NCBI RefSeq assembly: GCF_009746125.1
Contig: NZ_CP041352.1
Coordinates: 4,138,436 to 4,202,435, forward strand
Direction: 5' to 3'
DNA: 64,000 bases
Source: Casimicrobium huifangae
GTDB taxonomy: Bacteria; Pseudomonadota; Gammaproteobacteria; Burkholderiales; Casimicrobiaceae
The notes below the pieces were generated by a model. That model did not search any database. It was given only the letters and a program-made list of their open reading frames with translations, and was not told the DNA's origin. Below, one piece after another: positions 8,780-56,873 of this stretch. The position numbers and the translations under genes are program-made. Numbering within the stretch: position 1 is the stretch's first letter; every line of letters begins with the position of its first letter.

Positions 8780-10150
8780 ATGACCACTATCGCCAACTTG
8801 CAGCAAGCCTTTACCGCTGGCACCGACCAACCGTCCGCTCTCGCCAGCCGGCAGCTCAAACTCGCCCTTGACCCGGCTGGCGAAGGTGTGCGCGTATTTC
8901 TGGCACTGAGCGACGAAGCGATCCGTGTCGCAGCCACGCACGCAGACGAGCGCTTTCTGGCCGGCGGCGCTGCCGGGCCACGCGCGCTGGAAGGCATCAC
9001 GATTTCGATCAAGGATCTGTTCGATGTCGCCGGAGAAGTGACCACCGCCGGCTCCACGGTGTTGCGATCGCGCGCGCCGGCCACCGCCGATGCGCCCGCA
9101 GTGGCTCGCCTGCGTGCCGCGGGCGCGGTGCTCTTCGGTCGCACCAACATGGTCGAGTTCGCGTTTTCTGGCGTCGGCATCAATCCGCACTATGGCACCC
9201 CGCGCAACCGCTGGCAGCGCGAAGACGCGGGCGGCCACGTGCCAGGTGGTTCTTCCAGCGGCGCGGGCGTCAGTGTCGCCGACGGCATGTGCGTTGCGGC
9301 ACTCGGCACCGACACCGGCGGCAGCGTGCGCATCCCTGCCGCCTTCAATGGTTTGGTCGGCTTCAAACCCACCGCGTTCCGGGTGCCAGTGAATGGGGCT
9401 GTACCGCTGTCGTTCCTGCACGATTCAGTCGGTCCGCTGGCCAATTCAGTCGATTGCTGCGCAAGGATTGACGCAGTGCTGGCCGGTGAGTTCTTCAACC
9501 CGATGCCGGAAAAACCTGCGCAGCAGTTACGGCTGCTGTGTCCGTCAGGTACCTTGTGGAATGGTCTTGACGCCGAAGTCAGCGCAGCTTGTCAGCGGGC
9601 GATGCAAAAGCTGCGTGACGCTGGCGTCACCATCGTCGAAGCAAGGTGTGACGCGCTGGAGGATCTGTTCGCTGCCGGCAATCTGCCTCCAGACAAGCGA
9701 GTAATGGGTCGGCTGGCAGAAACCTTCGACTGGCATGCGGCCAACATCGGCGTGGATGGCGCGGGCTACGATCCGCGCGTCTGGCACCGCATCCAGCTTG
9801 GCGCCGACGTCACCCGCGCCGAGGTGTCGCAGGCAATTGCCTGGCTGCGCCTGTGGAAGCATCGCATGCACGAGGCGCTGTCGGGCTTCGACGCGATGAT
9901 CGCCCCCACGGTTGCCTGCGTACCGCCGCCGATTGCGCCGCTGCTCGCTGACGACGCCTTGTTCTTCGCCCGCAACCAGCTCATCCTGCGCAACACGGCC
10001 TGGGTGAACATGATGGACGGCTGTGCGCTGACCCTGCCCTGCCACGCGCACGGTCCCGCGCCGGTGGGCCTGCAATTGATCGGTCGTCACGCAGCAGATC
10101 ACCAGCTGCTCGCCACCGGACGAACTGTCGAGGCCATCCTGCGCGGATAA
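8780..10150 (+). CDS. Amidase (amidase-signature family)
   Basis: A 456-residue amidase-signature hydrolase with the Ser-cisSer-Lys triad: Lys in GITISIKDLFDVAG, the Gly/Ser-rich stretch GGSSSGAG, and the nucleophile Ser in TDTGGSVRIPAAFNGLVGFKPT. It resembles GatA in fold but lacks gatB/gatC neighbours, so it is more likely a free-standing amidase acting on a small amide. There is no signal peptide, so it is cytoplasmic. It is divergent from the alpha/beta hydrolase across a 70-bp gap. A hairpin that works as terminator for the opposite strand follows directly. Confidence 0.88.
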   Translation: MTTIANLQQAFTAGTDQPSALASRQLKLALDPAGEGVRVFLALSDEAIRVAATHADERFLAGGAAGPRALEGITISIKDLFDVAGEVTTAGSTVLRSRAPATADAPAVARLRAAGAVLFGRTNMVEFAFSGVGINPHYGTPRNRWQREDAGGHVPGGSSSGAGVSVADGMCVAALGTDTGGSVRIPAAFNGLVGFKPTAFRVPVNGAVPLSFLHDSVGPLANSVDCCARIDAVLAGEFFNPMPEKPAQQLRLLCPSGTLWNGLDAEVSAACQRAMQKLRDAGVTIVEARCDALEDLFAAGNLPPDKRVMGRLAETFDWHAANIGVDGAGYDPRVWHRIQLGADVTRAEVSQAIAWLRLWKHRMHEALSGFDAMIAPTVACVPPPIAPLLADDALFFARNQLILRNTAWVNMMDGCALTLPCHAHGPAPVGLQLIGRHAADHQLLATGRTVEAILRG

Positions 10151-12164: not shown

Positions 12165-12352
12165 GAATGCTCCTGGTAAGGAAAGAATGTCGCGAGCGAC
12201 GGGAAAACAGGGCGCGATTCTGCGTTGCGCGACCGCCGTTGGCTAGCCCACCGCGACCAAGACGGAAATTTCTGGCGCGAGTCGCGGAAACGGGCGGCGA
12301 CGCGCGGGCTGCGGTATCGGTAGCCAGCAGCATTCTGTCACTCACGTCGGCT

Positions 12353-12472
12353 ATCAACTTTTCTGGCAAATGGCGTCGGCAATGGGCTAAGTAGGCAGAA
12401 TTGCATAATGTCGACTTTATGCGAAATCGGCCCTCATGCCCTTTGCAAATGGGCTTTGTGCAAAAAGTTGAT
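12353..12472. repeat. 120-bp palindromic element, copy A
   Basis: The ends ATCAACTTTT and AAAAGTTGAT are perfect inverted repeats. The centre (about 12403-12422, around GTCGAC) is a near-perfect palindrome with a GCATAA/TTATGC stem, and most of the two 60-base arms pair with each other. It belongs with copies at 25835-25957, 39293-39411 and 49308-49427. It lies in the gap between the peptidase and grpE and ends 17 bp before the grpE promoter. The rest of that gap (12165-12352) holds only the peptidase leader and nothing else I recognise. Confidence 0.75.
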
Positions 12473-12489
12473 GTTTTGCGATACCCGCA

Positions 12490-16251: not shown

Positions 16252-16304
16252 GTAGCCCGGAGAAGCGAAGCGCGTCCGGGTTCCCGTGATCTCCGCCGAA
16301 GGCA
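16252..16304 (+). repeat. REP-type repeat, upstream of the RAYT gene
   Basis: A GTAG tetranucleotide followed by the palindrome CCCGG-agaagcgaagcgcgt-CCGGG, then a conserved tail ending in GCCGAAGGCA. The same sequence recurs at 16902 and 53456. GTAG-headed palindromes are the known substrates of REP-associated tyrosine transposases. Confidence 0.85.
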
Positions 16305-16317
16305 CTTCACCACCACG

Positions 16318-16362
16318 GTTCGATGAACAAATGCCTTGACGCGCTTCGCTTCTCAAGGCTAC
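16318..16362 (-). repeat. Inverted, divergent REP copy
   Basis: The sequence ending in GACGCGCTTCGCTTCTCAAG-GCTAC is the reverse complement of a REP variant (GTAGCCTTGAGAAGCGAAGC-GCGTC). With the copy at 16252 it makes an inverted pair, and its leader CGATGAACAAATGCC recurs at 53385-53400. Confidence 0.8.
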
Positions 16363-25830: not shown

Positions 25831-25834
25831 GCTT

Positions 25835-25957
25835 CATCAGCTTTTCGCTCAAACCCTCATTTGTAATGGGCTTACGCGGTCAAAACGCGGAAACCCGACT
25901 TTTGACACTTTCTGGCGCTAATCCCTTATTGAATAAGGCTTTCGATAAAAAGAGGGT
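25835..25957. repeat. 120-bp palindromic element, copy B
   Basis: The left end CATCAGCTTTTCG pairs imperfectly with the right end CGATAAAAAGAGGG. Internal arms with ATTTGTAATGGGCTTA and CCCTTATTGAATAAGG mirror each other, around a centre CCGACTTTT. It lies between the stop codons of the SDR and nitronate monooxygenase genes and may also act as a bidirectional terminator-like structure. Confidence 0.7.
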
Positions 25958-25977
25958 CAGGCGCGCGGATGCTTCCG

Positions 25978-39052: not shown

Positions 39053-39292
39053 CTCCGGTTCTTATGGATTTATCTTACCCCGCCGCATTGTCATTCATCA
39101 AATCAAATTTTTGCCCTTACCGACCTAAGAATGTTGGAAGCATGGCTTTGGCATAAGGCACCAGCGGATAGTGATCGCCAACTTGAATTGCCATGACGTT
39201 GGCAATTTTCTTGCAGAAAACAAGGTGCGCCAGCGTTGCGTTGTCGCCACAGGACAGCGTCTGACTGGCCCGGCGCCGGGGTGGCGCGCATT

Positions 39293-39411
39293 GGCTTTTT
39301 CGTTAAACGCTTATTTGAATTGGGCTTAAAGGCTTGTTTTACTGATAGTCGACTTTGGTGCTTTGTGCCCGTTGAGCCCTTATGGAATAAGGGTTATGAC
39401 GAAAAGATGAA
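39293..39411. repeat. 120-bp palindromic element, copy C
   Basis: The ends CTTTTTCGTTAAACGCTTAT and ATAAGGG…GACGAAAAG pair with each other. CCCTTATGGAATAAGGG is a local hairpin, and the centre is AGTCGACTTT. The rest of the gap 38982-39551 holds the hairpin at 39029, a leader for the DUF3455 gene and no convincing gene. Confidence 0.72.
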
Positions 39412-39551
39412 TGAACAGAAAAATTCCCTCGATTGCTGCATCCATTCGCTGGTCTCGGGCGTAGTGAAGGCAGGAACCTCCGCGCCGGCACGAATGCGGC
39501 GCGAGGCCCGCAATCTGCAATTCACTGAACACTGATCCAAGGAGTCCTGTC

Positions 39552-44584: not shown

Positions 44585-44607
44585 GAGGAATCGCGCTTAT
44601 CCATGCC

Positions 44608-44682
44608 GTTGGTGGTGAGCCTGTCGAACCACAACGACCGTTCAGTTAAATGCGTTCATGGTTCGACAGGCTCACCACGAAC
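44608..44682. repeat. Inverted pair of GTTCGTGG palindromic repeats
   Basis: Forward copy 44608-44635 (GTTGGTGGTGAGCCTGTCGA-ACC) and inverted copy 44655-44682 (GGTTCGACAGGCTCACCACG-AAC), 19 bp apart. The same family occurs at 32513 and 35065. It fills the GNAT-gcvP gap. Confidence 0.8.
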
Positions 44683-44715
44683 GGGAAAGTCATAAAGTCG
44701 CCGCCAACGGCTTGA

Positions 44716-45159: not shown

Positions 45160-45168
45160 CTTGTTTTT

Positions 45169-45237
45169 GCAGGAGCGGCTCGGCCGCGACCAGCGTCAAT
45201 TGGTGTAGACACCGGGTCGCGGCGGAGCCGCTCCTGC
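45169..45237. repeat. Inverted repeat GCAGGAGCGGCTC…GAGCCGCTCCTGC
   Basis: Arms 45169-45191 and 45215-45237 match at 22 of 23 positions. No T-run follows on the strand that carries gcvH, so it is a repeat rather than a clear terminator. It fills the gcvH-GNAT gap. Confidence 0.75.
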
Positions 45238-45243
45238 AGGTAA

Positions 45244-46880: not shown

Positions 46881-46913
46881 GGGACGTGGCTCCTGAGTGG
46901 AAGGTAACGTCCC
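46881..46913 (-). promoter_or_regulatory. Expression-platform hairpin over the gcvT ribosome binding site
   Basis: On the minus strand GGGACGT (46913-46907) pairs with ACGTCCC (46887-46881), one base before the ATG. The SD AGGAG (46894-46890) lies in the 19-base loop. Because this stem directly abuts the 3' side of aptamer-2 P1, glycine binding could switch SD access. This is inferred from the pairing only. Confidence 0.55.
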
Positions 46914-46914
46914 G

Positions 46915-47133
46915 GATCTGTCCTTTAGCCTGAGAGTTTCAACCGCCGGTTTTGCGGCGGTTTTGCCCCTTCGGCGGAGGCTCTCGCCAGTGTGTTGGCT
47001 GCCTCGCTCTCCAGATGTGCGGCAGCGATTCCTGCGAACCGACGCCGTGAATCAGTACGGTACCTGAGCGATCTTCCGGGGATTACGCCTACGGTAGCGC
47101 GAGAGCGGGTAGCCCGCGCGCTTCTCCTGATTC
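46915..47133 (-). ncRNA. Tandem glycine riboswitch upstream of gcvT
   Basis: Two aptamers on the minus strand. Distal aptamer 47133-47049: P1 GAATCAG/CTGATTC (perfect), GGAGAA at its start, CGTAGGCG, then GATCGCTCAGGTA. Proximal aptamer 47016-46916: P1 ATCTG/CAGAT, GGAGAGCGAGG, CGCCGAAGGGGCAAAACCGC, and AAACTCTCAGGCTAAAGGAC. These match the known glycine-riboswitch conserved words (CGCCGAAGG, CTCTCAGG, AAAGGACAG). The distal aptamer departs from consensus in several places. It switches on gcv genes when glycine is high in known cases. Confidence 0.92.
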
Positions 47134-47146
47134 AAAACGCAGTTTA

Positions 47147-48881: not shown

Positions 48882-49307
48882 ATGAAACTGTTTTTCGCAC
48901 TGATTGGTCTGCTCGCCGCGGCAACTGTGGCAGCCCAGACGCCCACCGGCGCCTGGAAGACCGTGGACGATGCCACCGGCAAGGAGAAGGCGGTGATCCG
49001 CATCACCGAGGCCAATGGCGTATTCACCGGCAAGATCGAAAAATTGCTCGACCCGGCCAAGCAGGACTCGAAGTGCGACGAGTGCACGGACGACCGCAAG
49101 GGCAAGCCGGTAGTCGGGCTCACCATCATGCGTAACGTCAAGAAAGGCGAAGGCCACTGGGAGGGCGGCGACATCCTCGACGCCGCCAACGGCAAGGTGT
49201 ACCGGGTTCGCCTCAGTCTCAGCGCCGACAACAAAAAGCTGGAAGTGCGGGGCTACATGGGCACGCCACTGTTCGGGCGGACGCAAACGTGGACGCGAAT
49301 GGAGTAG
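48882..49307 (+). CDS. DUF2147 family secreted protein
   Basis: A 141-residue protein with a signal peptide (MKLFFALIGLLAAATVAA). The DUF2147 pattern is evident: GAWKTVDDATGKEKAVIRITEANGVFTGKIEKLLDPAKQDSKCDECTDDRKGKPVVGLTIMRNVKK and the end RGYMGTPLFGRTQTWTRME. The CDEC pair may form a disulfide. The lipocalin-like family is of unknown function. AAGGAGG lies 5 bp before the ATG, which fixes the start, and the gene follows the DUF1993 gene by 25 bp. Confidence 0.88.
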   Translation: MKLFFALIGLLAAATVAAQTPTGAWKTVDDATGKEKAVIRITEANGVFTGKIEKLLDPAKQDSKCDECTDDRKGKPVVGLTIMRNVKKGEGHWEGGDILDAANGKVYRVRLSLSADNKKLEVRGYMGTPLFGRTQTWTRME

Positions 49308-49427
49308 CAGCTTTTTGGGCGAATCCGCAACTGCGTTGGGCTAAGGCGGTCATTTCATCAAATGTCGATAATTGGTCTTTTTGCCATCTGCGCCCGCACC
49401 GAATGGGCATTTCAGCGAAAAGCTGAT
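49308..49427. repeat. 120-bp palindromic element, copy D
   Basis: CAGCTTTT at 49308 and AAAAGCTG at 49418 are perfect inverted ends. The centre is AATGTCGATAATT, and the arms include CGTTGGGCTAAGGCGG and GAATGGGCATTTCAG. It fills the whole gap between the DUF2147 stop (49307) and the ATG of the next gene (49430). Confidence 0.75.
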
Positions 49428-49429
49428 CA

Positions 49430-53384: not shown

Positions 53385-53427
53385 TCGATGGACAAATGCC
53401 TTGACGCGCTTCGCTTCTCACGGCTAC
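53385..53427 (-). repeat. Distant inverted REP copy
   Basis: CTCGATGGACAAATGCCTTG-ACGCGCTTCGCTTCTCACGG-CTAC matches the 16318-16362 copy. It is the distal member of the RAYT-linked family. Confidence 0.8.
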
Positions 53428-53455
53428 AAGCCTGAACGATGCGCGGCGCCGCGAC

Positions 53456-53490
53456 GTAGCCCGGAGAAGCGAAGCGCGTCCGGGTTCCCG
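53456..53490 (+). repeat. Distant forward REP copy
   Basis: GTAGCCCGGAGAAGCGAAGC-GCGTCCGGGTTCCCG is identical in its first 35 bp to the REPs flanking the RAYT gene, 37 kb away. With 53385-53427 it forms an inverted pair in the opposite order from the 16-kb locus. Confidence 0.88.
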
Positions 53491-56779: not shown

Positions 56780-56873
56780 GTAGGGCGGGCATTGCCCGCC
56801 TTGTCCACTCTCATGCCGCAGTCAGGAAGACAGCGCTTCGCCCGTGGCGCAAGGCGGGCAGTGCCCGCCCTAC
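56780..56873. repeat. Inverted pair of GTAGGGCGGGC…GCCCGCC palindromes
   Basis: GTAGGGCGGGCATTGCCCGC-CTT at 56780-56802 and AAGGCGGGCAGTGCCCGCCC-TAC at 56851-56873 are inverted relative to each other. They fill the yidC-mnmE gap. Confidence 0.8.

Follow-up and report, generated by a model that had tools for sequence, protein, structure and literature searches.

A family of evenly spaced, two-fold symmetric intergenic DNA sites in Casimicrobium huifangae, with arm sequences that differ between species

Four near-palindromes of about 120 bp lie in a 64,000-nucleotide stretch of the Casimicrobium huifangae chromosome (the window), and they raise the question of whether such a repeat is a folded nucleic acid, a mobile element, or a site read by a protein. 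The sequence-only reading, which did not recognise the family, had described CTTTT-rich inverted ends, a GGGCTTA/CCCTTAT arm and a GTCGAC-like centre. All four places do have ends of CTTTT/AAAAG, blocks of GGGC/GCCC and such a centre, altered in copies B and D, and the covariance model coordinates are slightly wider than those first given (Table 1). All four copies are full length and were matched on both strands, as expected for a near-palindrome. They are intergenic, as had been proposed, with copy D starting inside the preceding gene's stop codon, and the covariance model found no fifth site in the 64-kb window at E up to 10. A tandem glycine riboswitch and other short REP-like inverted repeats, one of which is common to two places, were also seen in the window.

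Table 1. Positions of the four element copies and of other repeats and RNA features in the window
Feature	Coordinates	Strand	Covariance model score (bits)	Sequence blocks	Setting
Copy A	12349-12474	+	102.3	centre GTCGAC 12410-12415	grpE on one side, divergent S9 peptidase gene on the other; immediately downstream, a motif that we take to be a sigma32-like promoter
Copy B	25833-25959	+	95.7	centre CCCGAC 25894-25899	gap between convergent SDR and nitronate-monooxygenase genes
Copy C	39287-39413	+	103.9	GTCGAC 39348-39353, dyad 39350/39351; CTTTTT 39295-39300; GGGC 39322-39325; GCCC 39376-39379; AAAAG 39402-39406	upstream of DUF3455 gene
Copy D	49303-49429	+	91	centre GTCGAT 49364-49369	5' edge inside the DUF2147 gene stop codon; 3' edge abuts the ATG of the next ORF (49430)
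Tandem glycine riboswitch	46908-47139				upstream of gcvT
REP-like inverted repeat	16252-16362				
REP-like inverted repeat	44606-44684				
REP-like inverted repeat	45168-45238				
REP-like inverted repeat	53403-53480				
REP-like inverted repeat	56780-56873				

Single-copy searches of the organism's own genome (G000, 4.47 Mb) returned 8 matches at E 0.001 and 15 at E 0.1, and a covariance model built from 25 copies returned at least 150 (the best 150 of 1067 candidates), down to E 5e-10. Many sites were matched on both strands, and 113 unique sites were gathered, a biased sample in that these are the best-scoring ones. An unbiased count was obtained from 464 kb, comprising the window and the adjoining 400 kb, which held 42 matches scoring 25 bits or more; below these the best match reached 8 bits, and the reversed sequence gave a single match of 5 bits. 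Two of the matches (3806158 and 3807029) come from a single element in two halves, leaving 41 elements, or one per 11 kb. This split element (G000:C1 3806096-3807100) is interrupted by an insertion carrying, by eye, a lipoprotein-like ORF and is intact in the relative G011; judged by the range of the model that they cover, a small number of elements are incomplete, such as those at 3815491 and 3980910. The pattern GGGC-N23-TCGA-N23-GCCC matched 169 times across G000 and 0 times in a reversed control, and its 19 matches in the 464 kb each fell at an element, which gives a second estimate of 169 x 42/19, or about 370 elements. The four copies belong to a large family, with about 400 sites in the 4.47-Mb genome by the unbiased count.

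The 113 copies align nearly without gaps (206-207 nt with flanks, over 207 columns), and length is strongly, if not absolutely, kept, some copies with indels scoring low in ungapped comparison. Conservation is two-fold symmetric around GTCGAC, with outer CTTTT/AAAAG, AAA/TTT, GGGC/GCCC and AAGTCGACTT blocks and A/T-only positions 13 bp from the dyad, and columns 77, 130, 131 and 159 are invariant in all 113 copies. The weight matrices of the left half and of the reverse-complemented right half correlate at 0.91, compared with 0.64 for a flank control. Per-column conservation runs from 0 to 2 bits, with some inner columns carrying zero information, and the total over 113 copies is 96 bits, whereas addressing 113 sites would need about 16. 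Constraint so uneven and so large is not explained by uniform decay of a neutral repeat, and the early view of these near-palindromes as an unrecognised family under selection and outside genes holds.

Does the symmetry reflect base pairing? Paired base changes on both arms had been read as covariation pointing to a folded RNA or a DNA cruciform, and neither the changes nor the covariation exceed chance in 25 or in 113 copies. RNAalifold predicted four pairs from 25 copies, none of them changed on both sides. Over the 58-pair dyad of the same copies, covariation was 0.180 against 0.177 in shuffled data (194 of 500 shuffles as high) and pairing was 58.3% against 58.0% (198 of 500); the count of double-changed pairs, 43 against 39.2 (21 of 500), was the sole upward-leaning measure of five. 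Within-copy arm complementarity over the dyad in all 113 copies was 0.500, with 0.501 expected from column frequencies, and 0.515 with 0.516 expected when the range was altered slightly. Hairpins local to the arms or the ends lay within about 1.5 permutation sd of expectation, excepting the left end, where complementarity was below expectation (0.23 vs 0.28). Ranked by z value for complementarity, the top of 7,021 column pairs were 46/63 (5.8), 102/161 (5.1, at a frequency of 0.01) and 49/66 (5.1), followed by 49/63 (4.7) and 97/113 (3.7). These pairs are not nested, and those at columns 46-66 fit an arm variant shifted by 1 nt, AAATGGCGTC, which occurs on either arm and is the visible substructure in a set with no clear subfamilies. 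The arms of one copy therefore match no better than column frequencies predict, and the symmetry is of the binding-site type rather than a kept fold. The tests on both samples, covering the global dyad and the local hairpins, led us to reject an RNA structure; on this alignment evidence the palindrome is a symmetric consensus, presumably read as double-stranded DNA, and not a fold held by compensation. Single-strand folding is uneven, with z values of −3.9, −2.4, −4.4 and −0.7 for copies A to D, the last no better than shuffles, and Rfam gave no match in the four copies at the gathering threshold, nor, with E allowed up to 1, in the region 39200-39500 that holds copy C.

The placement of the sites was examined with genes called by a simple purpose-made gene caller. 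None of the 113 sites lies inside a gene, and within the 464 kb 1 of the 42 centres falls inside a putative gene of this caller. Among gaps of at least 40 nt, 16 elements, the split one counted twice, lie in 39 convergent gaps, 18 in 148 tandem gaps and 7 in 62 divergent gaps; the convergent excess also fits plain promoter avoidance. Spacing in G000 is even, with a coefficient of variation (CV) of 0.50 against 0.93 (sd 0.13) for random intergenic gaps, and 0 of 20,000 random placements were as even, likewise 0 of 20,000 under a length-weighted null. Gaps shorter than 4 kb number 4 where 12.9 are expected, and gaps longer than 23.5 kb number 0 where 4.4 are expected. The CV in G006 is 0.52 (0 of 10,000 random placements), and evenness is weaker in the smaller samples from G011 (p 0.035), G012 (0.048), G013 (0.11) and G002 (0.15). 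Mean gaps span 4.5-12.9 kb across these six genomes. An informal tally of strand by chromosome position, made together with locus GC skew, revealed no clear bias. One 134-kb stretch (G000:C1, about 81.2-215.4 kb) has no element in either genome-wide list, both of which are incomplete, the pattern list recovering 19 of 42 elements in the 464-kb test stretch. It holds an integrase-family ORF (677 aa) at 120355, one of seven in G000, and is possibly an acquired island.

At E 0.001 the first model, built on the G000 dialect, detected the element in 14 of 17 genomes of the genus (missing G002, G009 and G016) and in 0 of 43 genomes of other genera; at E 1e-4 it detected it in 14 of 64 genomes of the family, all of the same genus. 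A dialect-independent skeleton pattern, applied to an order-wide draw of 399 genomes, matched 40 times in G000, 2 times each in G008 and G010, once in G002, once in G006 (where the control also gave 1) and 0 times in G016. The remaining 393 genomes yielded 1 match each in 3, and the reversed control likewise in 3. Across 84,980 species genomes the G000-type pattern occurred in 69 stretches, 68 of them in four uncultured Burkholderiales MAGs and the other on a Prevotellaceae contig, taken as chance. In the searches run, the element was thus detected in one genus only.

Orthologous junctions were identified through reciprocal best hits of the flanking genes, a junction being testable where it was conserved. 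All 13 testable junctions (of 16 elements) were shared with G011, as were 12 of 12 in the reverse direction, and 0 of 47 control junctions without a G000 element carried one. The corresponding figures are 4 of 4 (14 elements), 4 of 5 and 0 of 9 for G013; 2 of 2 (9 elements), 2 of 2 and 0 of 5 for G012; 1 of 9 (44 elements), 1 of 2 and 1 of 13 for G006; and 1 of 3 (13 elements), 1 of 2 and 0 of 6 for G002. Positions are common to the closer species and mostly different in G006 and G002. For the window copies, 8 of the 15 relatives that have grpE carry an equivalent of copy A upstream of it at 15 bits or more, the weakest (15.4 bits) being partial, and an equivalent of copy C exceeds 20 bits upstream of the DUF3455 gene in 8 of 10 loci including its own, with 2 weak, in a comparison that left out 3 further matches of at most 41% identity. 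Site D exceeds 20 bits about 17 nt or less from the stop codon of the same gene in 12 of 16 genomes including its own, in several dialects, and was not found in G004, G008, G009 and G016; it was scored with the best of six models, the training sets of which included its own and the G013 copies. The junction of copy B, compared by eye, is without an element in G001, G003, G005, G007 and G015, which indicates that sites are gained or lost by lineage.

Sequence within shared sites has drifted further than position. Ungapped identity over 12 orthologous G000/G011 pairs is 0.549, against 0.475 for non-orthologous pairs; high-information columns give 0.78 against 0.72 and low-information columns 0.38 against 0.30. 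In 5 G000/G013 pairs the difference is slight, with 0.495 for orthologues and 0.478 for non-orthologues. A gapped comparison was discarded because random 130-mers score 0.584 under gapping. The ungapped figures imply that free positions are nearly randomised and constrained ones retained.

Models made per genome (G000, G011, G013, G006, G002 and G012) share one architecture with different arm words. G000 and G011 use CCCAT...TGGGC(TT), G013 GCATCCATAACGGGCTTGG, G006 GCCCAATT..AATTGGGCGA with the centre ATCGAT, G002 GGGGCTA, and G012 AACGACC...GGTCGTT; reversed controls stayed below 9 bits. Since the G012 and G002 models were grown iteratively from only 9 and 13 copies, site D, placed by synteny alone, served as a check on the dialects. 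There CGACC occurs 3 times each in G012 and G007 and twice in G003, none of which has TGGGC, and no more than once in any of the other 13 genomes. The word does not separate dialects at grpE (1 each in G012, G007, G005 and G008, 2 in G013), and GACCGCCTGGCGGT is visible at the grpE site of G012 and G007. Upstream of grpE in G013 (G013:C44, L160:1200-1330) lies a perfect 23-bp arm pair, both arms of the AAATGACGTC-type variant. The dialect is consistent inside a genome and differs between species, a property shared with DNA uptake sequences.

One copy lies on a phage contig. The G000-type pattern occurred in 0 stretches of viral contigs, a relaxed skeleton pattern in at least 120, a fixed-gap pattern in 5 and a GGGCT pattern in 2. 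When 122 viral stretches were scored with eight models, the sole element was on L447 (IMGVR_UViG_3300049488_000082, IMG/VR, 12.5 kb), a G000-like site at 8837-8962 with 47 bits; the others scored at most 10.3 bits, and reversed controls up to 9.5. The genes of L447 match repressor, primosomal, DNA-ligase and minor-tail genes, and the outer arms of its element are nearly perfect inverted repeats.

Our tentative preference is that the element is a double-stranded DNA site of about 122 bp for a putative two-fold symmetric protein complex, and that the roughly 400 sites form an intergenic lattice with a role in chromosome organisation. Five sub-sites would make up the site: the TCGA centre and, to either side, one palindromic arm block and one outer CAGCTTTT block. 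Its reader would be a putative fast-evolving, genus-specific DNA-binding complex, with arm dialects tracking changes in the DNA-binding specificity of that complex, and one site per ~10-11 kb may supply an anchor or boundary for each ~10-kb domain, self-recognition being a close alternative. The preference draws on the number of sites, their symmetry without covariation, position-specific constraint and even spacing, together with orthologous positions in close species, the dialects and detection in one genus. Against it stand the impermanence of positions, seen in the loss or lack of copy B in five relatives and in the few junctions shared with G006 and G002, the phage contig carrying one site, and the CGACC count that separates dialects at site D and fails at grpE. 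Genes 69 and 70 of G000, a fast-evolving pair between two sites, were considered as the reader and dropped for their TPM-type look; by eye we take the proteins to be a TPM-type pair with Gly/Ser-rich tails. A bolder version, in which the lattice is an identity or anchor system of the genus, with each genome shifting its dialect together while the sites stay and a phage carrying the site, as though DNA had to present the valid "password" once per 10 kb, is possible but rather doubtful.

The main rival is an ancient mobile element. Here the sites would be minimal transposon-end pairs, dispersed in the distant past by a transposase with target immunity, which produced the even spacing, and later kept or re-seeded by newer versions of the same dialect. 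The sequence-only reading had considered a MITE-like element, and the MITE-type traits are present: terminal inverted repeats, short length, intergenic dispersal and many copies. In addition, copy B is lineage-specific, partial and split copies exist, one copy is on a phage contig, and species differ in density, the mean gap being 4.5 kb in G006 and 10.6 kb in G000, at a similar CV. The copies themselves, however, show no near-identical recent members. Pairwise identity has a mean of 0.54, a maximum of 0.68 and an sd of 0.045, close to and slightly above the spread of column-shuffled data (sd 0.039, mean maximum 0.68), in a comparison that covers the 113 best-scoring sites, with about 290 other G000 sites outside it. 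By these statistics the copies appear to resemble independent draws from one ~96-bit weight matrix rather than recent duplicates. Gene conversion, as a source of the concerted dialects, was likewise unsupported, with no close pair among the 113. No target site duplication was seen in the 113 copies, the scan giving no diagonal signal beyond chance and one 5-nt window at z 4.0 among very many tried. Copy C had no match to ERIC or other repeats in 5,426 E. coli genomes (blastn, E up to 1) and none in plasmids, and copy A and the L447 element had none in phages. These results, with positions common to close species and constraint far from uniform, speak against recent mobility; an ancient mobile origin is unlikely, though it is the strongest of the alternatives.

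ERIC repeats, at about 120-130 bp, have the length of the element. ERIC and MITE-like repeats are further alike in being imperfect palindromes with tens to hundreds of intergenic copies and a limited taxon range (PMC10969869). A MITE reading accounts for the anatomy of the element; it does not account for the dialects, for the absence of close copies or for positions common to related species. The element has no sequence match to ERIC, no close copies and no compensatory arm changes, and its even spacing and genome-wide dialects may set it further apart.

Less probable again, and quite unlikely, is a self-DNA mark for an uptake, repair or defence machine, present once per ~10 kb, with dialects separating species and phages copying the mark. 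It would account for the dialects consistent within a genome, the even spacing and the phage contig with a G000-like site, and the 134-kb stretch without listed sites holds one of the seven integrase-family matches. Yet that stretch rests on incomplete lists (pattern recovery 19 of 42), the phage contigs with a site number 1, and a motif of 122 bp and ~96 bits would not easily arise through point mutations favoured by an uptake bias. Uptake and Chi-type marks are far shorter than this; uptake sequences are about 10-12 nt and occur about once per kb, about tenfold more densely than the element, and Chi is an 8-nt directional octamer, species-specific, found every few kb and on some phages. Chi is alike in its species-specific sequence, recurrence on the kb scale and phage carriage, but the element is long and symmetric. 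The nearest precedent for the dialects, though not for the anatomy, is the DNA uptake sequences of the Neisseriaceae, which have very many sites per genome and species-conserved dialects differing between relatives (PMC3630211). The 122-bp length, five sub-sites and gaps of 4.5-12.9 kb set the element apart from such short, dense motifs.

Strong DNA gyrase sites, wrapping about 130 bp, are very improbable. Supercoil domains measure ~10 kb, and the spacing of the element is similar. The E. coli gyrase motif resembles the element in being symmetric, about 130 bp long and phased in A+T, and the G+C of its flanks recurs with a period of 10.75 bp (PMC6379681). A+T in the element has its strongest period at 9.5 bp in 5 of 6 genomes and at 21 bp in G002; this top peak is weak in G006 and exceeds the amplitude at 10.75 bp in each of the six, a ranking made without a significance test. 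Letter-specific blocks, dialects and detection in one genus only also separate the element from the sites of a universal enzyme. Least credible of all is a structured RNA, cruciform or two-way terminator held by base pairing, for although folding is much stronger than in shuffles for two of the four copies and moderately stronger for a third, there is no covariation beyond chance, copy D folds at shuffle level, divergent gaps also hold sites, and Rfam has no match.

REP sequences are hairpins of 20-40 nt associated with RAYT transposases. REP and BIME sequences are extragenic palindromes found in over 100 copies and bound by proteins (PMC2817692). The element shares the first two features and, putatively, the third; it differs in being 122 bp long and in having no hairpin covariation. 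A search of mainly open-access literature found no description of this element family.

We return to the preferred reading, a lattice of sites bound by a symmetric complex. Domains on the scale of ~10 kb receive much discussion in work on bacterial chromosomes, and we know of no boundary element for them that is both sequence-specific and evenly spaced. If the reading is true, hundreds of sites in one genome would shift together with their reader, and a phage would copy its host's mark. A lattice conserved more in place than in sequence would then offer a handle on such domains: a protein to purify, sites to move and dialects to swap.
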